Assembly (NCBI RefSeq): GCF_017876495.1
Contig: NZ_JAGIOB010000001.1
Location: forward strand, 186,001 to 250,000
Direction: 5' to 3'
DNA from: Microlunatus capsulatus
GTDB lineage: Bacteria; Actinomycetota; Actinomycetes; Propionibacteriales; Propionibacteriaceae
Length of the DNA: 64,000 bases
Shown: piece after piece, positions 1 to 14,042 of the stretch
How positions within the stretch are numbered: the stretch's first letter is position 1
Layout: every line of letters starts with the position of its first letter
Position numbers and translations under genes: made by a program
Notes under the pieces: generated by a model
The model's input: only the letters and a program-made list of their open reading frames with translations
What the model was told of the DNA's origin: nothing
The model's database searches: none

Positions 1-363
1 CTGCTGGCCGCCCCGCAGCACCCCTACACCCGGGCGCTGCTCGAGGCGCTGCCGGCCGCGGTCCCCCGCGACCAGCCGCTCCGCGTCATCCCGGGCGCCC
101 CGCCCCCGCTGGTCGGCCTGGGTGCCACCTGCCGGTTCCTCGACCGGTGCGAGCACCGGCAGGACGCCTGCAGGACCTGGCCCACCGAGCTGGTCGGCAC
201 CGGGCCCGGCCACCTCAGCCGGTGCCGCCGGGCCGCCGAGCTGGGCCCCACCGCCCTGCCCGTGCCCGTCGCCGCCGCCCCGCTGCCCGTCAACCCCGTC
301 CCCGTCCCCCTCCACCCCGACTCCCACCTCTCGTCCGACCCCACCCCAGGAGACCTGTCATGA
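1..363 (+). CDS. Oligopeptide/dipeptide ABC transporter ATP-binding protein, C-terminal part
   Basis: Only the last 120 codons are inside the window; the start and the Walker motifs lie upstream. The visible part opens with the QHPYTRALL motif typical of the C-terminal end of OppD/OppF/DppD/DppF ATPases. It continues with a cysteine-bearing oligo_HPY tail (CRFLDRCEHRQDAC), a feature of peptide-importer ATPases that can bind an iron-sulfur cluster. The last 40 residues are a Pro/Val-rich tail. Its TGA overlaps the ATG of the next gene by 4 nt, so it is probably the end of a peptide-import cassette feeding the genes downstream. The family is clear; the substrate is not. Confidence 0.85.
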   Translation: MLAAPQHPYTRALLEALPAAVPRDQPLRVIPGAPPPLVGLGATCRFLDRCEHRQDACRTWPTELVGTGPGHLSRCRRAAELGPTALPVPVAAAPLPVNPVPVPLHPDSHLSSDPTPGDLS

Positions 364-1514
364 CCGCCACCCCGTCCGGTGCCACCCCGGAGAAGAAGAC
401 CCTCAACGTCGGCGTCGTCGGCACCGGGCGCTGGGCCGTCCGCTCCCACATCCCTGGCTGGCAGCGCGACTCGCGCTGCACCGTCGTCGGCCTGGCGGAC
501 GTCGACCAGGCGCTGGTGAAGTCCGCCGGCGAGCAGTTCGGGGTCTCGAACGTCACCGACGACTACCGCGACCTGGTGAACGACCCCGACATCGACGTCA
601 TCGACGTCGTCACCGGCGACGCCATGCACTTCGAGGTGACGATGGCCGCGCTCGAGGCCGGCAAGCACGTGCTGTGCGAGAAGCCGGTGCACCACAGCTA
701 CGCCGAGGTCGACCGCGCCGCCGACCTCGCGGCCAGCAAGGGCCTCAAGACCAAGCTGGGCTTCACCTTCCGCTACGCCCCGGCGACGATGTACGCCGCC
801 GAGCTGATCCGCGAGGGCTTCGTCGGCACGCCGTACATGCTCAACGCCTACGAGCAGAACAGCCAGTGGCTCGACCCGTCGAACCCGCTGCGCCAGCAGA
901 ACAACCCGGGCGACCCCGACGAGATCCAGGTGGCCTCCATCGAGGGCTACGGCGCCCCGGTGATCGACATCATGCACTGGTGGATGGGCACGCCCCTGAC
1001 GTCGGTCGTCGGCACCATGCGCAACTTCGTGCCCGAGCGCGTCGTCCGCGACACCGGGAAGATGACGCGGATGAACATCGACGACGGCGACATGTGGCTG
1101 GCCGAGTTCGAGGGCGGCGGCCTGGCGTCGGTGCAGTCCTCCTTCGTCACCGTCGGCAACTACCCCGGCATCGAGGTGCGGGTCTACGGCTCCGAGGGCG
1201 CGATCATCGTCCGGCTGGTGGAGGAGGCCGGCATCTGCCAGACCATCCGCACCGCCACCAAGGACGCCGTCGAGTTCGTCGAGCGGGAGATCCCGCAGCG
1301 GTTCTTCCCCGAGGGCGGCACCTCGCTGGAGGCCTGGCCGTTCCTCTTCTACTCCAACCTCATCGCCGACTTCGCCACCGAGATCCTCTCCGGTGGCCCC
1401 GAGAACCAGGGCGACTTCCGCCAGGGCGCGCTGGTGCAGCAGACCATCAACGCCTTCGAGGCGGCCCACCGCCGCCGCGCCTGGGTCGACTTCCCGCTGC
1501 CGGCGCAGGCATGA
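360..1514 (+). CDS. Gfo/Idh/MocA family NAD(P)-dependent oxidoreductase
   Basis: A 384-residue soluble protein. An N-terminal Rossmann fold begins with GVVGTGRWAVRSHIPGW, and the CEKPVHHSY segment near residue 105 carries the EKP lysine that is catalytic in this family. The C-terminal half fits the usual alpha/beta substrate domain. Such enzymes oxidise or reduce polyols, sugars or amino-polyols. I chose the ATG at 360 because it makes a 4-nt ATGA overlap with the ABC ATPase and gives a normal N-terminus; an earlier in-frame ATG at 147 would overlap that gene heavily. It overlaps tldD by 4 nt. Being next to a peptide importer and TldD/TldE is unusual for this family. The substrate is unknown. 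Confidence 0.88.
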   Translation: MTATPSGATPEKKTLNVGVVGTGRWAVRSHIPGWQRDSRCTVVGLADVDQALVKSAGEQFGVSNVTDDYRDLVNDPDIDVIDVVTGDAMHFEVTMAALEAGKHVLCEKPVHHSYAEVDRAADLAASKGLKTKLGFTFRYAPATMYAAELIREGFVGTPYMLNAYEQNSQWLDPSNPLRQQNNPGDPDEIQVASIEGYGAPVIDIMHWWMGTPLTSVVGTMRNFVPERVVRDTGKMTRMNIDDGDMWLAEFEGGGLASVQSSFVTVGNYPGIEVRVYGSEGAIIVRLVEEAGICQTIRTATKDAVEFVEREIPQRFFPEGGTSLEAWPFLFYSNLIADFATEILSGGPENQGDFRQGALVQQTINAFEAAHRRRAWVDFPLPAQA

Positions 1515-2989
1515 GCGCCGACGCGCACGGCTGGGGCGGGCTGGACGACGGCACCGCCCGCCAGGTCCTGGAGGAGGCGCTGGCCGCCGCCTCCGGGCCC
1601 GGGGTCTCCTTCGCCGACGTCCGGCTGGTCGAGGCCGAGGAGGAGCGGCTCTACACCGACTCCCGCGGCGAGCTGGACGAGCGCCGCGAGCACAACGCCG
1701 GGCTGGGCGTCCGGGTGCTGCTCGACGGCGCCTGGGGCTTCGCCTCGGGCCCGCTCGACGGCCCCGACGCCGTCCGGGCGGTGGCCCGCCGGGCCGTCGC
1801 CGTGGCCGCGTCGTCGTCCGGGCTGGCCCGGGTGGTGCTGCCGCCGCGGGAGCCCTCCAGCGGCACCTGGTCGGTGCCGGTCGAGGTCGACCCCTTCGCC
1901 GTCGACGCGGCGGAGCGGCACGGCCTGCTGCAGCGCGTCGTCGCCGCGGCCTCGGCCCCGGCCGAGGTCCGCTCGGTGACGGCCGGGCTGAACGCCAAGC
2001 GCCAGCACAAGCACTACGCCGACACCGAGGGCGCCCGGCAGCACCAGCACCTGGTGGAGACCGGCGCCATGTTGCTGGCCGTCGCGGCCGACGGCTCCGG
2101 CGCCCAGCGGCGCAGCTTCCCCAACTCCTTCCACGGCAACACCGCGGCGGGTGGCTGGGAGTACGTGCTGGGCCTGGGCCTGGAGGCCCAGGCGGCCCGC
2201 GTCGGGGAGGAGGCGGTCGCGCTGCTCCGCGCCCCGCAGGCCCCCGGCGGTACCGCCGACGTGGTCATCGGCCCGGCTCAGATGGCCCTGCAGATCCACG
2301 AGTCGGTGGGCCACGCCCTCGAGCTGGACCGCATCCTCGGCGACGAGACCAACTTCGCCGGCCGCTCCTGGGTGCAGCCCGAGGACATCGGGACGCTGCG
2401 CTACGGCTCGCCGGCGGTCACCGTCGTCGCCGACCCCACCGTGGCCGGCACCCGCGGCAGCTTCGCCTGGGACGACGAGGGCACCCCCGCCCGCCGGCAG
2501 CCGCTGATCGAGGAGGGCGTGCTCCGCCAGGTGCTCTCCAGCCGCGACTCCGCGGCCCGCTACGGCAGCGAGCCCACCGGCGCGGCCCGCGCCGACGGCT
2601 GGGGCTACCTGCCCGTCTGCTTCGCCACCAACGTCTACCTGGAGCCCGGCGAGGGCTCGCTGGATGCCCTGCTGGACCGGATGGGCGACGGCTACCTCGT
2701 CGACGACAACCGCAGCTGGTCGATCGACGACCGGCGGATGGCCTTCCAGTTCGGCACCGAGGCCGCCTGGGAGGTGCGCGGCGGCAAGCGCGGCCGGCTG
2801 CTCAAGGGCTTCTCCTACGGCGGGCTGACCCCGCAGTTCTGGGGCTCGGTCGAGGCCGTCGCCGGACCGGAGGAGTTCCGCGCCTTCGGCATGCCGTGCG
2901 GCAAGGGCGAGCCCAAGCAGTGGGGCTTCCTGGGCCACGGGGCTGCGCCCACCCTGTTCCGCGGCATCGCGACGGGGGTGGCCGGATGA
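1511..2989 (+). CDS. tldD: TldD family metalloprotease
   Basis: A 492-residue protein of usual TldD length. The zinc motif HESVGH is at residues 263-268, and a late cysteine in MPCGKGEPKQ at residue 463 matches the third metal ligand known for TldD. In E. coli, TldD works as a heterodimer with TldE (PmbA) and degrades unstructured peptides, including maturing microcin B17 and CcdA. Here tldE follows immediately with a 4-nt ATGA overlap, so equimolar co-translation is likely. The start at 1511 gives an ATGA overlap with the preceding oxidoreductase. The operon setting with a peptide transporter suggests cleavage of imported peptides; that is inference. Confidence 0.93.
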   Translation: MSADAHGWGGLDDGTARQVLEEALAAASGPGVSFADVRLVEAEEERLYTDSRGELDERREHNAGLGVRVLLDGAWGFASGPLDGPDAVRAVARRAVAVAASSSGLARVVLPPREPSSGTWSVPVEVDPFAVDAAERHGLLQRVVAAASAPAEVRSVTAGLNAKRQHKHYADTEGARQHQHLVETGAMLLAVAADGSGAQRRSFPNSFHGNTAAGGWEYVLGLGLEAQAARVGEEAVALLRAPQAPGGTADVVIGPAQMALQIHESVGHALELDRILGDETNFAGRSWVQPEDIGTLRYGSPAVTVVADPTVAGTRGSFAWDDEGTPARRQPLIEEGVLRQVLSSRDSAARYGSEPTGAARADGWGYLPVCFATNVYLEPGEGSLDALLDRMGDGYLVDDNRSWSIDDRRMAFQFGTEAAWEVRGGKRGRLLKGFSYGGLTPQFWGSVEAVAGPEEFRAFGMPCGKGEPKQWGFLGHGAAPTLFRGIATGVAG

Positions 2990-4419
2990 GCGCCGACCTG
3001 ACGCCCGTGCTGGGCGAGAGCCGGGCGCTGGAGGCCTGCCGGGCCGCCGTCGACGGCGCCCGGGCTGCGGGCGCCGACGAGGCCGAGGCCTTCCTCACCG
3101 GCCGCGCCGGCAGCTGGACCCGCTTCGCCGAGGACCGCATCTCCCAGCCGCAGGACATCACCGAGTGGCAGCTGATGGTCCGGGCCTCGGTCGGCGGCCG
3201 GTCCGCCCGGATCGCCACCACCGACCTGGCCGCGGCCCGCGAGGCGGGCGCCCGGGCGGCGACCCGGGCCCGGGTGCTCACCGAGGTCGCCGGCCCGCTG
3301 CCGGTGCTCCCCGCCCCTGCCGCGGCGCCGGCCCTGCCGCCGCTCGGCGCCGACGTCCTCTGGGCCGAGGACACCGCCGGCTGGGACGTCGGCGCCCGCG
3401 TCGGCACCGCCCGCACGGCGATGGCCGCCGCCCGGGCGGCCGGCGGCAGCGCCTTCGGCGTGCTGGGCCAGGCCGTCGGCGAGGTGGCCGTGGTCACCGC
3501 CGACGGCAGCACCCGCTATGCCGCGGGGACCGAGGCGCTGGGCTCGCTGACCGTCCGGGTCGGCGACGGCACCTCGCATTGGGTCGACCTCGACCGCCGG
3601 CTCGGCGTGCTCGCCGTCGACGCGGCCGTGGCCACCACGGTCGAGGAGGCCGTCCGCGGCCAGGGCCGGCGCGAGCTGCCGGCCGGGCGCTACGACGTCG
3701 TCTTCGGCCCGCTCGCCACCGGCGGGCTGCTCGAGGGCTTCGAGTCGTTCGGCTTCAGCGGCGACGCGGTGGCCGACGGCGTGGGCGCCGTCGCCACCCG
3801 GCAGGGCGAGCGGGTGGCCCCGGCGTCCGTCGACGTCGCCGACGACCCCCGCGCCCGGCGCGGGCTGCCCTTCCCCTTCGACCTGGAGGGGACGCCGTCG
3901 TCACGGGTTCCGCTGCTCGACCACGGCGTCGTCGGCGGCGCGGTCACCGACCGGGCCAGCGCGGCGCGCGCCGGCCTGGCCGCCACCGGCCACGCCCACA
4001 TCGCCCGCGAGGAGACCCCGCACCCGACGCCGTCGAGCCTGACGATGGCGGCCGGCGACGCGAGCACCGCCGAGCTGCTGGCCGGCGTCGAGCGCGGGGT
4101 CTACGTCCAGCGGCTCTGGTACCTCCGCGTCGTCGACCCGGTGGCCACCACCCTCACCGGCGGCAGCCGCGACGCCTGCTTCCTCGTCGAGGACGGCCGG
4201 CTGGCCGGCGCGCTCGCGCCCGCCCGCTTCACCGAGTCGGTCTTCGGCGCGCTGAGCCGGGTCGACGCGATCGGCCGCGACGTGCTGGCGCAGCCGCTGC
4301 CCAACGTCTGGAACGGGGCGGTCACCGCCCCGGCCGTCCGGGTCCGGGGCTTCCGCTTCGGCCCCCACGGCTCGCCTCCCCCCACCCCGACCCCCACCCC
4401 CACCCCCGCGAGAGGCTGA
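2986..4419 (+). CDS. tldE: TldE/PmbA family protein, non-catalytic partner of TldD
   Basis: A 477-residue TldE/PmbA-like protein with the family N-terminal region (repeated Ala-rich helices, then LMVRASVGGRSAR) and a conserved C-terminal beta domain. I see no HExxxH zinc motif, as expected for the TldE partner, which closes the peptide cleft but is not itself catalytic. The start overlaps tldD (ATGA at 2986-2989). The last twelve residues are a Pro-Thr repeat encoded by a C-rich tract at 4377-4407, which looks like a disordered tail not needed for the fold. The next gene begins one nucleotide after the stop. Confidence 0.9.
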   Translation: MSADLTPVLGESRALEACRAAVDGARAAGADEAEAFLTGRAGSWTRFAEDRISQPQDITEWQLMVRASVGGRSARIATTDLAAAREAGARAATRARVLTEVAGPLPVLPAPAAAPALPPLGADVLWAEDTAGWDVGARVGTARTAMAAARAAGGSAFGVLGQAVGEVAVVTADGSTRYAAGTEALGSLTVRVGDGTSHWVDLDRRLGVLAVDAAVATTVEEAVRGQGRRELPAGRYDVVFGPLATGGLLEGFESFGFSGDAVADGVGAVATRQGERVAPASVDVADDPRARRGLPFPFDLEGTPSSRVPLLDHGVVGGAVTDRASAARAGLAATGHAHIAREETPHPTPSSLTMAAGDASTAELLAGVERGVYVQRLWYLRVVDPVATTLTGGSRDACFLVEDGRLAGALAPARFTESVFGALSRVDAIGRDVLAQPLPNVWNGAVTAPAVRVRGFRFGPHGSPPPTPTPTPTPARG

Positions 4420-4420
4420 C

Positions 4421-5305
4421 GTGGACGTCCGCACCAACGCCGACCGGCTGGTCACCCAGGTCCTCACCGGCGAGGTCTGGCCGGCCACCGCCGACCGGCA
4501 CGCCTACCGGGTGGACGGCGACGGCCACCCCTTCGTGCTGCCGGGCATGGGCGGGGTCACCCTCGCCGGCCACCTCGGCGACCCGGCCACCGGCTGGGCC
4601 GCCGACCACCTGGAGCCGGGCCTCTCGGTCCGGCACCGCGACCCGGCGGCGAACTTCGCCCTGCAGTACCTCACCTGCGTCGGCAACGAGGTCACCGTGC
4701 TCTCCGGTGCCGCCGCGGGCGGCACGGGCGTGGCCATCGGCCAGCACGCCTACGTCCTCGTCGACGCCGACGACGCCGTGCTGGAGGCGACCACGGTCGG
4801 CGACCGCGTCCGGGTGGTGGCCCGCGGGCAGGGCCTGCTCCTGCTGGACCACCCGGACGTCCGGGTGAAGAACCTCGACCCGGCGGTGCTGGCGGCCATG
4901 CCGGGCGGCACGACGGCCGACGGCCGGCTGGCGGTGCACGTCGCCCGCGACGTGCCCGCCGACGCGGCCGGGGCCGGCGGCGGGATGTCGTCGGAGTACG
5001 CCAACACCGACCTGATGGGCGCCTACGCCGGGCTGGCCGACGACCTGTCGCTGGGCCTGGAGTCGCTGCGGATCGGCGACCTCGTCGTGCTGCGCGACAC
5101 CGACCACAGCTGGGGCCGCGGCTACCGGCCGGGCTGGCTGACCATCGGCACCATCTCGACCGGGCAGTGCGCGCTGTTCGGCCACGGCCCCGGCCCCAGC
5201 ACGCTGATGAGCGGACCGGCCGAGGCCTTCACGATCGTCGAGGACCCGGACGCGAACCTCGGCCACTACGTCGGGCGGCCCGCCGCCCAGGAGGTGCCCG
5301 CATGA
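4421..5305 (+). CDS. DUF4438 family protein, first of a tandem pair
   Basis: A 294-residue protein of no assigned function, starting with GTG one base after the tldE stop. It resembles DUF4438 proteins (Thermotoga TM1086 type): an N-terminal half with YRVDGDGHPFVLPGMGG, DHLEPGLSV and CVGN, and a C-terminal half with RIGDLVVLRDTDHSWGRGYRPGW and FGHGPG. No signal peptide or membrane segment is visible. The Gly/His/Asp-rich motifs suggest a ligand- or metal-binding beta fold, but that is inference. It overlaps its paralogue by 4 nt. Placement beside TldD/TldE and a peptide importer suggests a role in handling a peptide or modified peptide. The DUF4438 assignment rests on remembered motif similarity. 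Confidence 0.75.
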   Translation: MDVRTNADRLVTQVLTGEVWPATADRHAYRVDGDGHPFVLPGMGGVTLAGHLGDPATGWAADHLEPGLSVRHRDPAANFALQYLTCVGNEVTVLSGAAAGGTGVAIGQHAYVLVDADDAVLEATTVGDRVRVVARGQGLLLLDHPDVRVKNLDPAVLAAMPGGTTADGRLAVHVARDVPADAAGAGGGMSSEYANTDLMGAYAGLADDLSLGLESLRIGDLVVLRDTDHSWGRGYRPGWLTIGTISTGQCALFGHGPGPSTLMSGPAEAFTIVEDPDANLGHYVGRPAAQEVPA

Positions 5306-6195
5306 GGACCGTCGCCATGAACCTGGCCGGCGTCGCGGAGTTCCCGGCGATCGGCTCGACGCCGTACCGGGTCGACGTCGACGGCCGGCCCTACGTCCCC
5401 GTCGGCGACGGCGGCATCGTGCTCGGGGTCTCCCTCGGCGACCGGGTCACCGCCACGGCCGGCGACCACGTCGCCCCCGGCGTCTCGGTCGGCCACCCGG
5501 ACCCGGCCGCCCGCTTCGCCCTGACGGCGCACGCCTGCGTCGGCAACCCCGTCGTCGTCCGCGACGGCGCGGCCGCCGGAGCCACCGGGCACGTCATCGG
5601 CAAGCGGGGCGAGGACGGCCGGGTGCTGGCCTGGCTGCCCGAGGAGGCGCTGGCGGTGATGGTGCCCGGCGACGGGCTGAGCGTGCGGGCCTCCGGCCAG
5701 GGCGCCCGGCTCGACGGCGGGCCCGACGACGTCGCGCTGCTCAACCTCGACCCGTGGCTGCTCGACGGCCTCGGCGTGCAGGTGGGCCGCGACGGCGTCG
5801 GCGTGGGCGTCCGGGCCGTCGTGCCCAGCCGGCTGGCGGGCAACGGCGTCGGGCGGCCGGCCCAGCTGTGGGACCTCGACCTGGCCTTCCCGGCCGGCGA
5901 CCCGGTGCTGGAGGGCCTGCGGCTCGGCGACCTGCTGGCCGTCGCCGACCTCGACGTCCGGCACAACATGGGCTTCCGCCGCGGCTGGCTGACCGTCGGG
6001 CTGGTGGTGCACGGCGACAGCCCGATGCCGGGCCACGGCCCGGGCTTCGCGCCCCTGCTGACCGGGCCGGCCGCCCGGCTGGAGGCGCTCGTCGACGCGG
6101 GCGGCCACACCGGGCTCACCCTCGACGTCCTGTCCGGCGGACGCCGCGGACCGGCGGAGGTTCCCGCACCGGCCCCCGGGGGCAGGGCAGGATGA
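5302..6195 (+). CDS. DUF4438 family protein, second of a tandem pair
   Basis: A 297-residue paralogue of the preceding protein. Shared landmarks in the same order are YRVDVDGRPYV, DHVAPGVSVGHPDPAARFAL, CVGN, GAAAGATG, LRLGDLL, RRGWLTVG and GHGPG. It differs in that several acidic/His positions of the first copy are replaced (DTDHSWGRGY versus DLDVRHNMGF). The two may therefore form a heteromer or have split functions. It starts with ATG at 5302 inside an ATGA overlap, and its stop overlaps a possible ATG of the regulator at 6192. Function is unknown. Confidence 0.73.
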   Translation: MRTVAMNLAGVAEFPAIGSTPYRVDVDGRPYVPVGDGGIVLGVSLGDRVTATAGDHVAPGVSVGHPDPAARFALTAHACVGNPVVVRDGAAAGATGHVIGKRGEDGRVLAWLPEEALAVMVPGDGLSVRASGQGARLDGGPDDVALLNLDPWLLDGLGVQVGRDGVGVGVRAVVPSRLAGNGVGRPAQLWDLDLAFPAGDPVLEGLRLGDLLAVADLDVRHNMGFRRGWLTVGLVVHGDSPMPGHGPGFAPLLTGPAARLEALVDAGGHTGLTLDVLSGGRRGPAEVPAPAPGGRAG

Positions 6196-6257
6196 TCACC
6201 CAGACACCGGCCGTCCGCGAGGCCCGCGCCGGCCGAGGGACAGGAAGGGGAGCTGCC

Positions 6258-6908
6258 GTGCTGGAGCACCAGTCACTGCCGGAGACGGTGCGCGACGCGC
6301 TCCGCCGGCAGATCCTCAACGACGAGCTGCCGGCCGGGGCCCGGCTCGTGGAGGCCACGATCGCCGCCGACCTGGGCGTCAGCCGGGCCACCGTCCGGGA
6401 GGCGATGCGCGGGCTGGCGTCCGAGGGGCTGGTGGAGATCGCCCCCCGCCGGCACAGCGTCGTCACCCGGATGAGCGCGGAGGACGCCGACGACGTCTGC
6501 TTCGCCCGCTACGTGCTGGAGGCCGGCATCGCCAAGTCGCTGACGCCGCAGGACAAGGTGGGCCTCGACGAGGCGCTCGCCGAGGCCCTCGACCGGATGG
6601 ACGAGGCCGCCCAGGGCGGGGACCTGCAGGCGCTGGTCGCCGCCGACGTCCACTTCCACGGGCTGATCGTCCAGGCGTCCCGGCGGCGCCGGGCCGTCGA
6701 GCTGTGGGGAGCCGTCAACGGCCAGATCGGCGCCCTGATGCGCGCCTCGATCGACCGCCAGCACCTGGCGCTGGCCGGGGTCCGGGCCCGGCACGAGCCG
6801 GTCCGCCAGGCCCTGGCCAGCGGCACGGCGCGGCAGATCGAGAAGGCGATCTACGCCCACTACGTCACCGACCGCGACCTGGTGCCCGAGCACCCCGGTC
6901 CCGCGTGA
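6258..6908 (+). CDS. GntR family transcriptional regulator, FCD (FadR-like) subfamily
   Basis: About 216 residues from the GTG at 6258, which has a good ribosome-binding site (AAGGGGAG about 5 nt upstream). A longer form from the ATG at 6192 would add 22 residues and overlap the previous stop as ATGA. The winged HTH covers roughly residues 8-70 (VRDALRRQILNDELPAGARL, SRATVREAMRGLASEGLV). It is followed by an all-helical FCD ligand domain with the metal-site type histidines DVHFHGLI and ARHEPV. Such regulators usually bind small organic acids and repress the cluster they sit in. Being inside the operon, it is likely a self-limiting feedback regulator of this module. Confidence 0.9.
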   Translation: MLEHQSLPETVRDALRRQILNDELPAGARLVEATIAADLGVSRATVREAMRGLASEGLVEIAPRRHSVVTRMSAEDADDVCFARYVLEAGIAKSLTPQDKVGLDEALAEALDRMDEAAQGGDLQALVAADVHFHGLIVQASRRRRAVELWGAVNGQIGALMRASIDRQHLALAGVRARHEPVRQALASGTARQIEKAIYAHYVTDRDLVPEHPGPA

Positions 6909-7915
6909 GCCGCCCCGAGCCCGTCCGCTGGGGCGTGCTGGGCACCGCGGGCATCGCCCGCGCCCAGTTCCTGCCCGCGCTGGCCGAGGCGGGGGGCCGG
7001 GCCGTCGTCGTCGGCGGCCGCGACGTCGCGCGCACGGAGGCGTTCGCTCGCGCCGAGGGGGTCGAGCGGGCCGTCGAGGGCTACCAGGCCGTGCTGGACG
7101 ACCCGGCCGTCGAGGCCGTCTACGTGCCGCTGCCCAACCCGCTGCACGCCCGCTGGGCCGCCGCCGCCCTGGAGGCGGGCAAGGCGGTGCTGTGCGAGAA
7201 GCCGCTGACGACGTCACCGGCCACCACGGAGGCGCTGCTGGCCGTCGCGGCCCGCAGCCCGCGGCCGCTGTGGGAGGCCTTCGTCTTCCCGTTCCAGGCC
7301 CAGCACCGCCGCGTCGTCGAGCTGGTGGCCTCGGGTGCGGTCGGCGAGCTGCGCGAGGTCGTCGCGTCCTTCCACTTCACCGTCAGCCGGCCCGAGAACA
7401 TCCGGCTGTCGGCCGACCTCTTCGGCGGGGCGCTGGCCGACGTCGGCTGCTACCCGCTGCGGCTCGCGCACGAGCTGTACGGGGTCCCCGCGCTCGACGC
7501 GGCCGTCGTGGCCGAGCCGGCCGGCGGTGCGGGCGGCGTCGAGGTCGAGGCGGCGGGCCGGCTCACCTACGCCGACGGCCGCCGCGTGCTGCTGACCTGC
7601 GGGTTCCGGCGGGCGCCGGAGACGACGACGCTGCTGCTGGGCACCGAGGGCAGCATCCGGCTGGACAACCCGTGGCACCCGACGCCCGGGGCCGCGCTGC
7701 AGCTGCGCCGGACCGGGGCCGATCCGGTCGTCGAGCACCCGACGACGGACGCCCGCTCGTTCACCGCCGCGCTGCGGCACGTGCACGCGGTGCTGCGCGA
7801 GGAGGCGGAGCCGGAGCTGCTGGCCGCCGGCTCGGCCGGCCCGGTCGCGGCCGCGCTGGCCCTGGCCCGCCGGTCCGCCGGCCTGGCCGAACCCGGACCG
7901 GAGGCGACGCCATGA
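6905..7915 (+). CDS. Gfo/Idh/MocA family oxidoreductase, second in the operon
   Basis: A 336-residue protein starting with GTG in a GTGA overlap with the regulator. The Rossmann motif GVLGTAGIARAQFLPAL is at the N-terminus, followed by CEKPLTTS with the EKP lysine. The C-terminal substrate domain contains ADVGCYPLRLAHELYG, typical of dimeric dihydrodiol-dehydrogenase or glucose-fructose-oxidoreductase types. It is clearly a different subgroup from the enzyme encoded at 360-1514, so the operon carries two separate pyridine-nucleotide steps. The stop overlaps the ATG of the following flavin oxidoreductase by 4 nt. Substrate unknown. Confidence 0.9.
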   Translation: MSRPEPVRWGVLGTAGIARAQFLPALAEAGGRAVVVGGRDVARTEAFARAEGVERAVEGYQAVLDDPAVEAVYVPLPNPLHARWAAAALEAGKAVLCEKPLTTSPATTEALLAVAARSPRPLWEAFVFPFQAQHRRVVELVASGAVGELREVVASFHFTVSRPENIRLSADLFGGALADVGCYPLRLAHELYGVPALDAAVVAEPAGGAGGVEVEAAGRLTYADGRRVLLTCGFRRAPETTTLLLGTEGSIRLDNPWHPTPGAALQLRRTGADPVVEHPTTDARSFTAALRHVHAVLREEAEPELLAAGSAGPVAAALALARRSAGLAEPGPEATP

Positions 7916-8724
7916 CCCGCCGAGGGCTCTTCCTGCCCCCGTTCGACGTGCTCGCCGACCCGGCCCTGGTGGCCGAGCTGGCCGCCGAGGCCGAGGAGGC
8001 GGGCTGGGACGGCGTCTTCGTCTGGGACCACCTGATCTACGCCGACCCGGTGCGCGAGATCGCCGACCCCTGGATCTGCTGCGCCGCGATCGCCGCGGCG
8101 ACGTCGCGCATCCAGCTCGGCCCGATGGTCACGCCGCTGTCGCGGCGCCGGCCGCAGGTGCTGGCCCGCCAGGCCGCCTCGCTCGACCGGCTGTCCGGTG
8201 GCCGGCTGGTGCTCGGCTTCGGGCTGGGCGACGACGGCCGGGTGGGCGAGCTCTCCCGGTTCGGCGAGGAGACCGACGCCAAGGCCCGGGCGGCGATGCT
8301 CGACGAGGGCCTGGGGGTGCTGCGCGGGCTGCTGTCCGGCGAGCCCGTCGACCACGACGGCCCGCACGCGCCCGCCCGCGGCGTCACCTTCGCCCCCGCC
8401 GGCACCCGGCCCGGCGGCATCCCGTTCTGGATCGGCGGCCGGTGGCCGAACAAGCCGCCGCTGCGCCGGGCGGCCCGGCACCAGGGCGCCTTCGTCATCG
8501 CCGTCGAGACCCCCGACGACCTCGCCGGCGCCCGCGCGGTGCTCGCCGACGTCCGGGCGGCGGCGGGTGCGGGGATGGACGGCTTCGACCTGGTCGTGCA
8601 GCTGGGCCCGGGTGAGGACCCGGCGCCGTGGGCGGACGCGGGCGCCACCTGGGTGCTCACCCAGGTCGGTCCGTACCACCTGGACCTGGCGGAGGTCCGG
8701 CGCGTGGTGCGCGCCGGTCCCTGA
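7912..8724 (+). CDS. LLM class flavin-dependent oxidoreductase
   Basis: A 270-residue bacterial-luciferase-like protein (TIM barrel using FMN or coenzyme F420). Recognisable segments are AEEAGWDGVFVWDHL near the N-terminus, LDRLSGGRLVLGFGLGDDG near residue 95, and a C-terminal PGEDPAPWADAGATWVL strand-helix unit. In actinobacteria many such enzymes use F420, but the cofactor cannot be decided from sequence alone. It is the last gene of the operon, joined by a 4-nt overlap. The operon ends at an inverted repeat that includes its stop codon (8721-8765). It probably performs an oxidative or reductive step on the same substrate as the two Gfo/Idh/MocA enzymes. Confidence 0.9.
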   Translation: MTRRGLFLPPFDVLADPALVAELAAEAEEAGWDGVFVWDHLIYADPVREIADPWICCAAIAAATSRIQLGPMVTPLSRRRPQVLARQAASLDRLSGGRLVLGFGLGDDGRVGELSRFGEETDAKARAAMLDEGLGVLRGLLSGEPVDHDGPHAPARGVTFAPAGTRPGGIPFWIGGRWPNKPPLRRAARHQGAFVIAVETPDDLAGARAVLADVRAAAGAGMDGFDLVVQLGPGEDPAPWADAGATWVLTQVGPYHLDLAEVRRVVRAGP

Positions 8725-8765
8725 GGTCGCAGGCGCGTCCCGCGAGGGCCGGTGCCGGACCTCAG
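8721..8765. terminator. Short bidirectional inverted repeat between convergent genes
   Basis: CTGAGGTC (8721-8728) and GACCTCAG (8758-8765) are perfect 8-bp inverted arms about 29 nt apart. The left arm contains the stop codon of the flavin oxidoreductase, the right arm the stop of the convergent penicillin-binding protein. There is no U-tract, so termination is plausible but weak. Confidence 0.35.
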
Positions 8766-11029
8766 CGGCGGCCGCGCGGCTCCTGGCCGGGGACCGCCTG
8801 ACCGGGGGCCGGCTGGCCGGGGGCCTGCTGGCCGGGCAGGGGCTGACCGGGGAGCGGCTGACCGGGCTGGCCGCCCGGACCGCCCCGGAAGGTGCTCGAG
8901 CCGTCGCCGTAGACCAGCGCCGGGGGCGGGGCGTCGAACGTGGTCGCCGGACGGCCGTCCAGGTAGGACTCCATGGCCGGCTTCCAGATCTCCTGGCCGG
9001 CGTCGCCGCTGCCCGAGCCCTCGAGCACGCGCCCGGTCGAGGGCACGACGTAGCCCTTGAGCCCGGCCCGGCCCCGGCCGCCCTCACCGGCCTTGAACGG
9101 GGCGCGCGCGTTGTCGATGGAGATCATCGCCGCGCCGGCGGCGTCGGGTGTGTAGCCGACGAACCAGGTGGCGGCGTTGCTGTCGATGGTGCCGGTCTTG
9201 CCGGCCTGCGGGCGGCCGTCGGCGGTGGCGACCCGGGCCCCGGTGCCCTGGGTCATCACCCCGGCCAGCATGGCGTTGACGGCGTCGGCGACGCCCTCGT
9301 CCAGCACCCGCTCGCAGCTCCCGTCCGGCACGTCCAGCGAGGCGCCGGAGGCGTCGGTGACCGAGTCGAGCACCACCGGGTCGCAGTGGATGCCGCCGGA
9401 GGCGAAGGTGGCGTACGCGCTCGCCATCGAGAGCGGGTCGACCTCGACGGTGCCCAAGGTGAAGGACGGCTTGTCGTCGTAGGAGCTGACGGGCGCGTCG
9501 GCGGTGCTGCTGCGGACGCCGACCTTCTCGGCCATCCGGGTGACGTCGCACATGCCGACGTCGAGGGCCAGCTGCACGAAGTAGGTGTTCACCGAGCGCT
9601 GCGCGGCCAGGTTCATGTCCATCACGCCGTTGGTGCCGGTGGAGTTGCTGACCTCCCACTGCCCGTTCACCTGCCGCGTGCCCTCGCAGCTCTCGAAGCT
9701 GGCACCGGAGAAGTCGACGGTCCGGCGGGCGTCGTAGCGGGTGGACAGCGGCAGCCCGTCCTGCAGGGCCGCGGCGGCGGTGAAGGCCTTGAACGTCGAG
9801 CCGGCCTGGAACCCCTGGGCGCCGCCCAGCGCCGGGGGCACCGAGTAGTTCCAGTAGGTCTCGCCCTCCTCGGCGTCGGAGCCCATCACGGGACGGCTCT
9901 GCGCCATCGCCAGCACCCGGCCGGTGCCGGGCTCGACCATGTCCATCACCGAGATCAGCGGGTCGGTCGGGGCGACGACGGCGCTGACGGCCTCCTGGGT
10001 CGCCTCCTGCGTCGACGGGTCGAGCGCGGTCCGGACCGTCAGCCCGCCGCGCAGCACGGCCTGCTCGCGCTCCTCCGGGGTGGCGCCCAGGCTGGGCGTC
10101 TGCAGCAGCGTCTTGTAGACGTAGTCGCACAGGAACGGGAAGTCGCTGGTGGTGCAGCCGCTGGTGGTCGTCTCGACGGCGTCCTCGTCGAAGCCCTTCT
10201 TCTGCGCCTTGGTGGCCTGGGCATCGGTGATGGTGCCCAGCTCGGCCATCCGGGCCAGCACGACGTCGCGGCGCTGCAGGCCGGCCCGCTCGTTCTCGAC
10301 CGGGTTGTAGGCCGTCGGGTTCTGCACCAGCCCGGCCAGCAGGGCGGCCTGGGCCAGGGTCAGCTCGGCCGCCGTCGTCCCGAAGTAGTGCTCCGCCGCG
10401 GCCTGGACGCCGTAGGCGCCGTCGCCGTAGTAGGCGATGTTGAGGTAGCGCTCGAGGATCTCGTCCTTGGTGAGGTTCTGCTCCACCGAGACGGCGTAGC
10501 GCAGCTCCTTGATCTTGCGGCTGTAGGTGCCCGCGCGGGCGGCCTCGACGGCCGCTTCGTCGCCGGCCTTGGCGGCCTCCTCGACCTGGACCATCTTCAC
10601 GTACTGCTGGGTGATGCTCGAGCCGCCCTGCGTGACGTCGTCGGACGCGGTGTTGCGCAGGAAGGCGCGCAGCGTGCCGATCGGGTCGATGGGGCCGTGC
10701 TCGTAGAAGCGGTGGTCCTCGATGGAGATGATCGCCTCGCGCATCACGGGGGCGATGGCGTCCAGCCCGACGTAGACCCGGTTCTCGGCGTAGAACGTCG
10801 CCAGCAGGTCGCCGTCGGCGTCCAGCACCCGGGTGCGCTGGGACTGCGCCGGGGCGTCGAACTCCACCGGCAGCGTCGTCAGCTCCTCCGACGCGGCGTC
10901 GGTGGCCCAGGCCGCGGCGGCCACCGCCGGCAGCACCAGGCCGGCCGCCAGCAGCCCGGCGACGGCGCTCACGACCACGAAGACGAGGGCCGCGGTCGAG
11001 CGGCGGCGGGGTCGCGAGGAGGGAGGCAC
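8762..11029 (-). CDS. Class A penicillin-binding protein (transglycosylase/transpeptidase)
   Basis: A 755-residue bifunctional peptidoglycan synthase. A basic N-terminus is followed by one membrane anchor (about residues 12-42). The GT51 transglycosylase domain has EDHRFYEHG and GGSSITQQYVK. The transpeptidase has the serine motif STFK (Ser411), an SxN-type SVN, and KTGT. The C-terminus is a disordered run of PGQ/PGQP repeats ending in a basic stretch, common in actinobacterial PBPs. The start is GTG at 11029. It is convergent with the peptide operon and appears monocistronic. It would act at the outer face of the membrane, polymerising lipid II and cross-linking stem peptides. Confidence 0.95.
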   Translation of the reverse strand: MPPSSRPRRRSTAALVFVVVSAVAGLLAAGLVLPAVAAAAWATDAASEELTTLPVEFDAPAQSQRTRVLDADGDLLATFYAENRVYVGLDAIAPVMREAIISIEDHRFYEHGPIDPIGTLRAFLRNTASDDVTQGGSSITQQYVKMVQVEEAAKAGDEAAVEAARAGTYSRKIKELRYAVSVEQNLTKDEILERYLNIAYYGDGAYGVQAAAEHYFGTTAAELTLAQAALLAGLVQNPTAYNPVENERAGLQRRDVVLARMAELGTITDAQATKAQKKGFDEDAVETTTSGCTTSDFPFLCDYVYKTLLQTPSLGATPEEREQAVLRGGLTVRTALDPSTQEATQEAVSAVVAPTDPLISVMDMVEPGTGRVLAMAQSRPVMGSDAEEGETYWNYSVPPALGGAQGFQAGSTFKAFTAAAALQDGLPLSTRYDARRTVDFSGASFESCEGTRQVNGQWEVSNSTGTNGVMDMNLAAQRSVNTYFVQLALDVGMCDVTRMAEKVGVRSSTADAPVSSYDDKPSFTLGTVEVDPLSMASAYATFASGGIHCDPVVLDSVTDASGASLDVPDGSCERVLDEGVADAVNAMLAGVMTQGTGARVATADGRPQAGKTGTIDSNAATWFVGYTPDAAGAAMISIDNARAPFKAGEGGRGRAGLKGYVVPSTGRVLEGSGSGDAGQEIWKPAMESYLDGRPATTFDAPPPALVYGDGSSTFRGGPGGQPGQPLPGQPLPGQQAPGQPAPGQAVPGQEPRGRR

Positions 11030-11783: not shown

Positions 11784-12482
11784 TCAGGCGCCGGGACCGG
11801 CGGCGGCCACCGGGGACGCCGGGGCGGTCGTCGTCGCCTCCGGCCGCGGGTCCAGCCGGACGGCGACGTGCGGCAGGAACAGCTGCACGAGCGGCCCGAT
11901 CCCGACGGCGTAGAGGACGGTCCCGAGGCCGACGGTGCCGCCCAGCGCGAACCCGACCGCCAGCACGACCACCTCGATCCCCGTGCGGACGAGCCGCAGG
12001 CTCGCCCCGGTCCGGCGGGCGAGGCCGGTCATCAGCCCGTCGCGCGGGCCGGGGCCGAAGTGGCTGCCGATGTAGACCGCGCCGGCCAGCCCGTTGGCGA
12101 CGACCCCGCCGACCAGCAGCAGCACCTGCAGGACCAGCGGCCCCGGCGTGCGCAGCACGGCCAGCCCGAGGTCGGCCGCGATCCCGACGGCGAAGACGTT
12201 CGAGATCGTGCCCAGGCCCGGGCGCTGCCGCAGCGGCACCCACATCAGCAGCACCAGCGCGCCGACGACGATGGTGATGGTGCCGTAGCTGAGCGGCACC
12301 CACCGCTCCAGGCCCTCGTGCAGGACGTCCCACGGAGCCAGCCCGAGGTCGGAGCGCAGCATCATGGCCATCGAGAAGCCGTAGAGCGCGAGGCCGAGGT
12401 AGAGCTGGGGCAGCCGGCGGGCCAGCCGGCCGGCGCGGAGCTGCTGCAGGGGGCCGAGGGCGGAGGGGGCGGACGTCGTCAC
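11784..12482 (-). CDS. YczE-like integral membrane protein
   Basis: A 232-residue hydrophobic protein with about six membrane spans. The landmark segments are LYGFSMAMMLRSDLGLAPWDVLHEG near the N-terminus and GSHFGPGPRDGLMTGLARRTG in the middle, characteristic of the YczE/COG2364 family. The C-terminus is a Pro/Ala-rich tail. It starts with GTG at 12482 and is divergent from a MocR-type regulator. Pairing of yczE with a MocR regulator (YczR) is known from Bacillus and other genera, so the membrane protein is probably the target of that regulator. The transported or sensed compound is not known. Confidence 0.82.
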   Translation of the reverse strand: MTTSAPSALGPLQQLRAGRLARRLPQLYLGLALYGFSMAMMLRSDLGLAPWDVLHEGLERWVPLSYGTITIVVGALVLLMWVPLRQRPGLGTISNVFAVGIAADLGLAVLRTPGPLVLQVLLLVGGVVANGLAGAVYIGSHFGPGPRDGLMTGLARRTGASLRLVRTGIEVVVLAVGFALGGTVGLGTVLYAVGIGPLVQLFLPHVAVRLDPRPEATTTAPASPVAAAGPGA

Positions 12483-12562
12483 GGTGCCATCGTCGACGAC
12501 GCCAGGACCGGCCCACCAGGGCCAATCCGTCGGCACTGGCCTGCTCCTACGGCGAGGACCCC

Positions 12563-12586
12563 GGATTGGTACGGTACGACCAGTCC
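12563..12586. promoter_or_regulatory. Candidate MocR operator between yczE-like gene and mocR
   Basis: GGATTGGT (12563-12570) and ACCAGTCC (12579-12586) form an inverted repeat with 7 of 8 arm positions matching, separated by ACGGTACG. Another CCAATCC half-site lies about 40 nt to the left. The position, 16 nt before the MocR start and in the divergent intergenic region, suits an autoregulatory operator. No binding data exist. Confidence 0.45.
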
Positions 12587-12602
12587 ACCCGAGGAGCGCG
12601 CG

Positions 12603-14042
12603 ATGACCCCCACCCGCTGGCTGGCCGCGGCCGGGCTGCGCGACCTGCTGGGACCGGACGCTTTCCGCTCCCCCGCCTACCGCGACCTGGCCGAGCGCGT
12701 CCGCTTCCTCGTCGTCGACGGCCGGCTGGCCGTCGGCACCCGGCTGCCCAGCGAGCGGGAGCTGGCCCGCGTGCTGGGGCTGAGCCGCTCCACCGTGACG
12801 GCCGCCTACGCCCACCTCGCCACCACCGGCTACCTGCGCACCCGGCAGGGCTCGGGCGCGTTCGTCGAGGTGCCGCCCGGCCAACCGCTCGGCGGCCTGC
12901 CCGGCGTGGGCCTGGCCGGCGCCGGGGCGCTGAACTTCGCCTTCGCCGCGCCCGCCGCCCCGGCCGGTGTGGCGGAGGCGTACGCGGAGGCGGTCGGGCA
13001 GCTGCCGACGCTGCTGCGCAGCCACGGGTACTCCGCCGACGGGCTGCCGGTGCTGCGGCAGCGGATCGCCGACTGGTACACGGCCCGCGGGCTGCCGACA
13101 GCCCCGTCCCAGGTGGTCGTGACCGGCGGCGCGCTGGCCGCGCTGAACCTCGTGGCGGCGTCGCTGCTGGGTCCGGGCGACCGGGTCCTGGTGGAGACCC
13201 CGACCTACGCCAACGCCCTCGATGCGCTGCGCCGGCGCGGCCTGCGGCCGATGGCCTACCCGCTGGGGCCGGACGGCTGGGACGCTGCGGGTTTCGACGC
13301 GACGGTCCGGCAGACCGCACCGCGCGCGGCCTACCTGATCCCCGAGTTCCAGAACCCGACGGGCGGCTGGCTGGAGGCCGGGCTGCGCCCCGAGCTGGCC
13401 GCGTCGCTGCGCCGGACCCGCACCGTCGCGGTGGTGGACGAGACCCTGGTGGAGACGCGGCTGGACGGCCAGCCGCCGCGGCCGCCGCTGGCCTCCTTCC
13501 TGCCCGACGCCGTCACCCTCGGCTCGGCCAGCAAGGCGTTCTGGGGCGGTCTGCGGATCGGCTGGGTGCGCGCGCCGCGCGAGCTGGTCCGCACCCTGGT
13601 GGAGAACCGGGCGACGCTCGACCTGGGCACCCCGCCGCTGGAGCAGCTGGCCCTGGCCGCGCTGCTGGCCGACGCCGGGCCGGTGCTGGCCGACCAGCGG
13701 CTCCGGCTCCGCGAGCAGCGCGACCGGCTGGTGGGCCAGCTGGCCGCCCACCTGCCCGCCTGGCGCTGCACGACCCCGGGCGGCGGGCTGAGCCTGTGGG
13801 TGGAGCTGCCGACGGAGTCCTCGAGCCGGCTGGCGGCCGCGGCCGAGCGGCAGGGCCTGCTGCTGAGCGCCGGCCCGCGCTTCTTCCCGGGTGCCGGGGG
13901 CGAGCGGCGGGTCCGGATCCCCTTCGCCGCCGCGCCCGAGGTGCTCGACGACGCCGTCCAGCGCCTGGTCCGGGCGTGGGCCGCGGTCGAGGACGGGACG
14001 ACGGGCGCGGCCGTCCCGCCGGCGCTGGACCTCAGCGCCTGA
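12603..14042 (+). CDS. MocR family transcriptional regulator (GntR HTH fused to aminotransferase-like domain)
   Basis: A 479-residue protein. The winged HTH spans about residues 18-90 (RLPSERELARVLGLSRSTVTAAYAHLATTGYL). An aminotransferase class I-like domain follows, with PEFQNPTGG and SASKAFWGGLRIGW, where the lysine is expected to bind pyridoxal phosphate. MocR proteins sense PLP or PLP-amino acid adducts and regulate divergent genes, here the YczE-like membrane protein. The ATG at 12603 has GAGGAG 6 nt upstream. The PdxR-like sensing role is family knowledge; the effector is unresolved. Confidence 0.92.
   Translation: MTPTRWLAAAGLRDLLGPDAFRSPAYRDLAERVRFLVVDGRLAVGTRLPSERELARVLGLSRSTVTAAYAHLATTGYLRTRQGSGAFVEVPPGQPLGGLPGVGLAGAGALNFAFAAPAAPAGVAEAYAEAVGQLPTLLRSHGYSADGLPVLRQRIADWYTARGLPTAPSQVVVTGGALAALNLVAASLLGPGDRVLVETPTYANALDALRRRGLRPMAYPLGPDGWDAAGFDATVRQTAPRAAYLIPEFQNPTGGWLEAGLRPELAASLRRTRTVAVVDETLVETRLDGQPPRPPLASFLPDAVTLGSASKAFWGGLRIGWVRAPRELVRTLVENRATLDLGTPPLEQLALAALLADAGPVLADQRLRLREQRDRLVGQLAAHLPAWRCTTPGGGLSLWVELPTESSSRLAAAAERQGLLLSAGPRFFPGAGGERRVRIPFAAAPEVLDDAVQRLVRAWAAVEDGTTGAAVPPALDLSA

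Follow-up and report, generated by a model that had tools for sequence, protein, structure and literature searches.

An importer, TldD/TldE and two DUF4438 genes at one locus

The window analysed here is a stretch of 64,000 nucleotides of the Microlunatus capsulatus genome (C1:186001-250000; a genome of 4.41 Mb in a single contig), and it begins with a run of nine plus-strand genes at 1-8724 in which two DUF4438 genes lie side by side. Genes were identified by Pfam matches, all of which were over the cut-off. The run consists of the C-terminal part of an oppD-type ATP-binding cassette (ABC) ATPase gene cut by the window edge (1..363; oligo_HPY, 1.7e-14), a Gfo/Idh/MocA dehydrogenase designated Gfo1 (360..1514; PF01408, 1e-26), TldD with an intact HESVGH zinc motif (1511..2989; PF19289, 3.5e-38), its partner TldE without the zinc motif (2986..4419; PF19289, 5.7e-43), the TM1086-like DUF4438A (4421..5305; PF14505, 1e-43, and PF20999, 4.5e-30), the divergent paralogue DUF4438B (5302..6195; PF14505, 7.9e-32, and PF20999, 8e-20), a GntR/FCD regulator (6192..6908; PF00392, 1.8e-15, and PF07729, 1.1e-14), a second Gfo/Idh dehydrogenase, Gfo2 (6905..7915; PF01408, 9.2e-22), and an LLM-class flavin/F420 oxidoreductase (7912..8724; PF00296, 4e-40). 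Both Pfam halves of the DUF4438 family, PF14505 and PF20999, were over the cut-off in DUF4438A and in DUF4438B, as was PF19289 (PmbA_TldD) in both TldD and TldE, and the regulator contains both the GntR helix-turn-helix and the FCD domain. Reading of the junction bases gave seven 4-nt overlaps (ATGA or GTGA) and, between TldE and DUF4438A, the arrangement TGA-C-GTG, a 1-nt gap. An earlier note on the window had named this gene set with its junctions, and all of it is present. The reading frames are real, with strong homologues in other genomes in the same order.

The window edge cuts an 18-gene locus, and the same plus-strand run starts 6189 nt before the window. The earlier note had suggested looking upstream for the rest of the transporter, and it is located there. 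An SDR gene (-6189..-5377) comes first and is followed by OppF (-5380..-4271), a solute-binding protein (SBP; -4274..-2643), DppB (-2640..-1690), DppC (-1693..-800), and OppD (-740..363), which runs into the window; the full oppD gene is L003:18761-19861 plus stop and starts about 740 nt before the window. The importer is complete, with a family-5 SBP, two permeases, and two ATPases with an oligo_HPY tail. On the minus strand, a divergent run of four genes begins with a 2-hydroxyacid dehydrogenase (2HADH; -6406..-7434) and continues with a DapA-family protein, a second SDR, and an aminotransferase that ends at -10329.

Conservation and co-inheritance of the module

One scan of named genomes yielded 358 relatives of DUF4438A, and the closest 80 were used for counting; gene presence at each locus was called with score thresholds of our own choice, and some loci are cut by contig ends. 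The module was found in 36 of these best 80 of 358 loci (L018-L052 and L090), 35 from Actinomycetota, including Acidimicrobiaceae and Solirubrobacterales, and one from Bacillota, with varied gene order. Since the same module, comprising a peptide-type importer, TldD/TldE, two DUF4438 proteins and a Gfo/Idh dehydrogenase, occurs in many genomes, the conserved-neighbourhood search proposed in the earlier note bears out its view of a conserved unit, and the arrangement is not unique to this genome. DUF4438A and DUF4438B were each present in 36/36 loci and Gfo1 in 34/36, both misses being contigs that start inside the module. The importer genes followed with DppB and DppC in 33/36 each, OppD in 32/36, OppF in 28/36, and SBP in 27/36, together with TldD (27/36), TldE (28/36), GntR (29/36), 2HADH (23/36), and an aminotransferase (12/36). 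Gfo2 (10/36), LLM (8/36), SDR (1/36), the second SDR (0/36), and the DapA-like protein (0/36) were less frequent. When only the 23 loci of at least 19 kb were considered, Gfo1, DUF4438A, DUF4438B, DppB and DppC were each present in all 23, TldD and TldE in 21, GntR in 19, 2HADH in 16, and the five importer genes together in 17. Thus Gfo1 belongs to the core, while Gfo2 and LLM are optional; the earlier note was right that two different Gfo/Idh genes are real, but they are not equivalent. In two loci (L026:1020-8721 and L027:810-7615) there are two Gfo1-like genes, one with a window-type importer on the minus strand and the other adjoining DUF4438A.

Among 96 genomes of relatives, the own genome included, DUF4438 passed the cut-off in four, namely the own genome and three of its 19 congeners, and one further genome gave a weak match under the cut-off. 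An orthologue of Gfo1 (87-100% identity) was found in the same four genomes, the next best match being 32% identical, and the three congeners keep the whole gene order, including the divergent 2HADH and DapA-like genes. In a class-level sample, 4/393 genomes (own included) passed the DUF4438 cut-off, with the tandem pair in each. From the locus counts and these two surveys, the module is therefore patchy yet coherent.

Protein-distance correlations with DUF4438A, to whose values shared species descent contributes, were calculated with L052 left out. They were high for Gfo1 (r 0.80, 34 rows), TldD (0.85, 27), TldE (0.82, 28), DUF4438B (0.85, 36), GntR (0.80, 29), and 2HADH (0.91, 23), and weaker for the importer proteins DppB (0.55, 33), DppC (0.54, 33), and SBP (0.44, 27); every one of these values was reached by 0/999 permutations. 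The SBP was 57-84% identical to that of the Microlunatus locus in L018, L019, L026, L027, L036, L037, L043 and L090, and 25-31% identical in the other 19 module loci with an SBP match of more than 70 bits. The lower correlations of the SBP and the permeases, taken with these two ranges of identity, fit two interchangeable importer types. Replacement of the importer with retention of the core would point to a constant substrate class. The nearest solved structure of the other SBP type, for the one locus tested (L025), was 8upi (1e-104).

Two loci carry additional genes beside the module aminotransferase. In L022 (14600-17715), a trio of DAO, 2Fe-2S (Fer2_4) and Pyr_redox genes follows the module and its aminotransferase; we take this trio to be like three-subunit amino-acid or opine dehydrogenases. 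A hydroxyproline-peptide substrate was considered on account of this trio and set aside, as it occurs in L022 only among the loci listed. In L037, a RidA-type protein is encoded beside the aminotransferase, which is in keeping with imine intermediates.

Two paralogue pairs and a palindromic motif

Residue signatures were compared among 39 DUF4438A, 39 DUF4438B and 44 single-copy DUF4438 proteins (122 rows). E65, H109 and the other family invariants are present in all 39 DUF4438A proteins and are likewise invariant in the 44 single-copy proteins. In DUF4438B, E65 is replaced by A or S in 38/39 and H109 by R in 39/39, no residue aligns to N6, and R233, nearly invariant in DUF4438A and single-copy proteins, is replaced in at least 36/39, while D62, H63, C86, N89 and H255 are retained in 37-39 of the 39. 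A tree of 84 of the 122 rows separated DUF4438A, DUF4438B and single-copy proteins into three groups (30, 30 and 24 rows) with support of 100/95, 100/100 and 98/88, respectively; the Bacillota rows form long branches of unsure placement. A similar asymmetry was observed in the peptidase pair of the same operon, in which HExxxH was detected in 27/27 module TldD proteins and 0/29 module TldE proteins (fragments of <200 aa or <150 bits left out). By analogy with an intact TldD and a TldE without zinc motif, we propose that DUF4438A may be the reactive subunit and DUF4438B a supporting one, and that the two probably form a heteromer.

DUF4438A matched TM1086 (PDB 3dcl) at an E value of 2.2e-55, and the only full-length PDB match of a predicted DUF4438 model (predicted local distance difference test, pLDDT, 85) was again TM1086, with Z 36 over 274 residues. 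The N-terminal barrel of the model resembles that of F1-ATPase (Z about 9 over about 68 residues), a likeness that carries no functional information. Searched by itself, the C-terminal half retrieved TM1086 again (Z 14), followed by weak RsmE-like rows (Z about 5), the level of a common arrangement. The comparison contained no formamidase or cyclophilin row, an absence that excludes nothing. No enzyme class follows from these matches of the predicted fold.

Single-copy DUF4438 genes were found in 44 further loci (L053-L097 except L090), part of them in a second conserved cluster in Gemmatimonadota, Chloroflexota and Pseudomonadota; their neighbours carry Pfam names from one representative each, the others being taken from the locus map. 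These neighbours include Ldh_2 (30/44), an aminotransferase (26/44), SBP (25/44), GntR (21/44), Gfo/Idh-like proteins named by eye (19/44), M24 peptidase (17/44), M32 carboxypeptidase (16/44), and amidohydrolase (13/44), as well as peptide-type ABC, deacetylase, ureidoglycolate-lyase-like and AstE/AspA proteins. TldD exceeded 50 bits in one of the 44 (L094). From these neighbours and this single TldD, DUF4438 is linked with peptide-type import and amino-acid chemistry beyond the module as well, but its link with TldD/TldE is confined to the module. A ureide substrate, suggested by the ureidoglycolate-lyase-like and deacetylase neighbours, was not carried over to the module loci. In two Bacillota metagenome-assembled genomes (L057:10908-11963 and L096:10901-11923), DUF4438 is followed by a gene that by eye, from its N-terminal sequence, is adenosine deaminase-like.

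The nearest solved structure of the module TldD was 5nj5 (1.5e-26). A second TldD/TldE pair is encoded elsewhere in the genome (G000:C1:4008338-4010505) and shares about 33-37% identity with the module pair across the matched parts, the module TldD itself being about 34% identical to this second TldD. The gene of an alpha/beta hydrolase that by eye is like proline iminopeptidase (L017:19531-19998) lies divergent to 2HADH in a locus of an uncultured actinobacterium that lacks TldD/TldE, and the hydrolase may replace the peptidase there. TldD/TldE are discussed among the leader-removing proteases of ribosomally synthesized and post-translationally modified peptide (RiPP) systems (PMC10885120), and the earlier note had allowed that the locus could mature a small peptide. 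However, when small open reading frames (20-110 aa, ATG/GTG, 516 candidates) were sought in the gaps of the 36 loci and in the window, none proved widely shared; the largest set comprised six loci and maps to the region where the aminotransferase gene starts, on the other strand. Among the family matches of the upstream genes and of the nine in the window, there was no RiPP modification enzyme such as YcaO, MNIO, radical SAM or lanthionine synthetase. In addition, the ABC system has a solute-binding protein, the mark of an importer. Maturation of a small ribosomal peptide by TldD/TldE is therefore highly improbable.

The exact 13-mer GTCGAYWRTCGAC (core GTCGA-NNN-TCGAC) occurs at two places in the own genome and at no other. 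These sites, C1:179626 and C1:179781 (window coordinates -6374 and -6219), both lie in the divergent promoter, the former about 31 nt before 2HADH and the latter about 17 nt before SDR. With up to one mismatch, seven more places were found, of which one overlaps the second site and the other six do not. A 22-bp palindrome, TGTCGATTGTCGACAATCGACA, was then searched in 40 rows (the 36 module loci, three congener loci and the own locus, with L018 and L108 being one genome), and it was detected at up to five mismatches in 25/40 and at up to four in 19/40. In 24 of these 25 rows, the site precedes the first gene of a module operon; in L021, the remaining row, the aminotransferase and a second transporter flank it. 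A further three rows have the palindrome at 6-7 mismatches in the expected intergenic gap, and in the remaining 12 the module start is at or beyond the edge of the available DNA. Since no Markov shuffle (20 per row) came below five mismatches, the 19 rows at up to four mismatches stand out, while the six rows at five stand out by position alone.

GntR was not shown in seven module loci. Two of them (L027 and L049) break off inside DUF4438B or directly behind it. The remaining five come from Microbacteriaceae (L021, L023, L024, L031 and L051), and all of these have a GntR-family gene whose matched part starts 19-65 bp away from the motif. The motif appears again upstream of an aminotransferase (27-28% identical to that of the Microlunatus locus) in L024, L031 and L051. 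We infer from these positions that GntR may bind the palindromic motif and that the module is probably under one switch.

Proposed working and likeness to known systems

With a probability of roughly 0.55, we read the locus as a module under GntR control that takes up and breaks down a small peptide-like (amide-linked) compound. Import and breakdown had been suggested in the earlier note, and the regulator gene and conserved motif fit inducible uptake and breakdown, but LLM and Gfo2, which the note listed with the set, are optional. In the proposed working, the GntR/FCD repressor would occupy the palindrome at both divergent promoters and would come off in response to an effector, which is probably a carboxylate derived from the substrate. 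The family-5 SBP with DppB, DppC, OppD and OppF would then bring the compound in, and TldD/TldE would cut a peptide bond, with TldD as the zinc subunit. DUF4438A/B, probably as a heteromer, would act on the compound or a fragment of it; DUF4438A would supply the reactive residues, from among the invariant H63, E65, H109 and H255, and DUF4438B would be its divergent partner. Gfo1 would use NAD(P) to oxidise or reduce the part set free, and the amino- and 2-oxo-acid part would be fed into central metabolism by the co-located aminotransferase and 2HADH. At somewhat under even odds, DUF4438A/B could be a new heteromeric type of enzyme responsible for the defining reaction of a catabolic pathway not described so far, with Gfo1 and a peptide-type importer as its constant partners. 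The joint presence of an oligopeptide importer, a metallopeptidase, an aminotransferase and 2HADH would also suit the scavenging of cell-wall (murein-type) or D-amino-acid peptides. This is unlikely, however: the matches of the own locus include no amidase, LD-carboxypeptidase, racemase or amino-sugar gene, and the score of the murein-tripeptide OppF model falls well short of the cut-off.

Several observations weigh against the reading of a module for a peptide-like compound. TldD/TldE are absent from the available DNA in 8/36 loci, and in these eight genomes, whose completeness is not stated, a distant TldD (29-36%) is the only one in five and there is none in three. The aminotransferases of most loci are only 22-29% identical to that of the Microlunatus locus. 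Some single-copy DUF4438 genes of anaerobes (e.g., L091 and L093) have no transporter or peptidase neighbours, and because these genes stand alone, the reaction of DUF4438 itself need not concern peptides. Gfo1, the most constant enzyme, is closer to sugar dehydrogenases than to amino-acid enzymes, no NCBIfam cut-off for a specific enzyme was passed by proteins of the own locus, and a substrate or activity is on record for no module member. As for the motif, its consensus was derived from the same loci that were later counted, and therefore its position and the search of the own genome are the independent evidence. In that genome the 13-mer at up to one mismatch has nine places against five for a reversed control, which indicates that the inexact matches are mostly background, and the 10-mer TTGTCGACAA at up to one mismatch has 69 against 43. 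A 17-bp form at up to three mismatches has, among the matches listed for 15 genomes, 2-25 matches per genome against 0-6 in the control, so most of these places are meaningless. The GntR proteins of the five Microbacteriaceae are only 30-32% identical to the window GntR, and in three of the five they are the best GntR match of their genome.

The kinship of Gfo1 bears on a different substrate. Its orthologues share an EKP motif (34/34) and D-x-x-H-W (33/34), and its best curated models, NF052479 (115 bits; cut-off 650) and TIGR04380 (110 bits; cut-off 355), are of the levoglucosan/inositol-dehydrogenase type, as are PDB matches. The nearest curated model of Gfo2 is D-xylose 1-dehydrogenase (NF041392, 92.3 bits; cut-off 350), and LLM reached 135.8 bits with TIGR03619, under the cut-off of 166.9. 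A DapA-like enzyme and SDR occur in the Microlunatus loci, and AgaA and the agrocinopine protein AccA are among the matches of the family-5 SBP, a family that also has nickel and opine binders. The compound could accordingly be opine-like or a glycosylated amino compound, in which an amino acid or short peptide is linked to a sugar or polyol; Gfo1 and Gfo2 would then oxidise the sugar, the DapA-like aldolase would cleave, and TldD/TldE and the aminotransferase would handle the amino-acid part. On the other hand, Gfo2, SDR and the DapA-like protein are not core, the Pfam and NCBIfam matches inspected for the own locus include no sugar kinase, isomerase or glycosidase, and no opine model passed its cut-off. 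It is because TldD/TldE are missing in some loci, Gfo1 is of the sugar-dehydrogenase kind, and no activity is known that the peptide-like substrate is given the value stated above, with the opine or sugar conjugate as a possible but doubtful alternative.

The importer offers a further hint at the substrate. The nearest solved structure of the window-type SBP is AapF (7kz8), at 3.3e-76. The 7kz8 entry presumably holds the ethanolamine derivative HEHEAA. According to PMC10134790, the structure of the importer required for HEHEAA has been solved, and HEHEAA is not bound by a close homologue; because of this homologue, the likeness to AapF hints only weakly at small peptides or ethanolamine amides. 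AapF belongs to the plant-responsive PipR system, which imports a peptide-like signal and is encoded beside peptidases; the abstract of PMC4981722 describes the transporter as required for the response to leaf macerate, peptone and Ser-His-Ser, with transport and peptidases tuning this response (PMC4981722). Sensing or quenching of a peptide-like signal could thus be considered for the Microlunatus module too, and the proline iminopeptidase-like hydrolase beside the locus without TldD/TldE would agree with it. The regulator is GntR/FCD and not LuxR, however, the Pfam matches of the own module include no peptidase besides TldD/TldE, and the many redox enzymes suggest consumption rather than sensing, which makes a signalling role quite unlikely. 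Uptake and breakdown of a peptide-like compound remains the preferred reading.

A search of 5.39 million papers gave none for DUF4438 or PF14505 by name and Pfam accession, nothing alike for TldD/TldE with operon terms, as judged by titles, and no match for the structure entries 7KZ8 and 8UPI. No function of TM1086 was found there either: of seven papers containing that word, six have titles on unrelated subjects, and one on protein crystals (PMC2661377) may mention the Thermotoga protein. The name AapF matched one paper, on archaeal pili. The earlier note likewise knew of no described pathway with this gene set. The module is real and conserved, and no description of it was found; regulated ABC import plus catabolism is a known kind of system. 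A PDB structure of the DUF4438 family has existed since 2008, and with the module the family acquires a defined genetic context together with partners, a regulator and a candidate operator, which makes the function of DUF4438 testable by ordinary genetics in soil-type actinobacteria. The module also provides, within a single operon, a second pair of intact and degenerate paralogues, as well as a TldD/TldE copy that comes with its own importer.

Two neighbouring features of the window were read by eye. The nine-gene run is followed by a convergent gene for a class A penicillin-binding protein (8762-11029, minus strand) with a repetitive Pro-Gly-Gln-rich C-terminal tail. At about 11784-14042, a YczE-like membrane protein adjoins a divergent GntR-aminotransferase (MocR-like) regulator, and we take these to be perhaps the known YczR/YczE pair. 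Plasmid homology was considered and dropped, as seven records matched, covering 2-5% of the query.

The module shares parts with four known systems. TM1086 of Thermotoga maritima (PDB 3dcl and 3n99) belongs to the same DUF4438 family as DUF4438A and DUF4438B by sequence and predicted structure, but several of its single-copy relatives are without the module, whereas the Microlunatus locus has two divergent paralogues in an operon. The levoglucosan/inositol dehydrogenases of the Gfo/Idh/MocA family provide the best curated models for Gfo1, yet Gfo1 scores far under their cut-offs. In the PipR/PipA/AapA-F plant-responsive system of Pseudomonas sp. GM79, the SBP is related, and importer, peptidases and regulator are co-encoded as in the module (PMC4981722, abstract). 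That system has a LuxR-type regulator and other peptidases, in contrast to GntR/FCD in Microlunatus, and its abstract mentions no DUF4438, TldD/TldE or Gfo1 (PMC4981722). The TldD/TldE (PmbA) peptidase (5nj5) has the same two-subunit layout, with HExxxH in one subunit only, while the module copy is a dedicated one, in an operon with its own importer.

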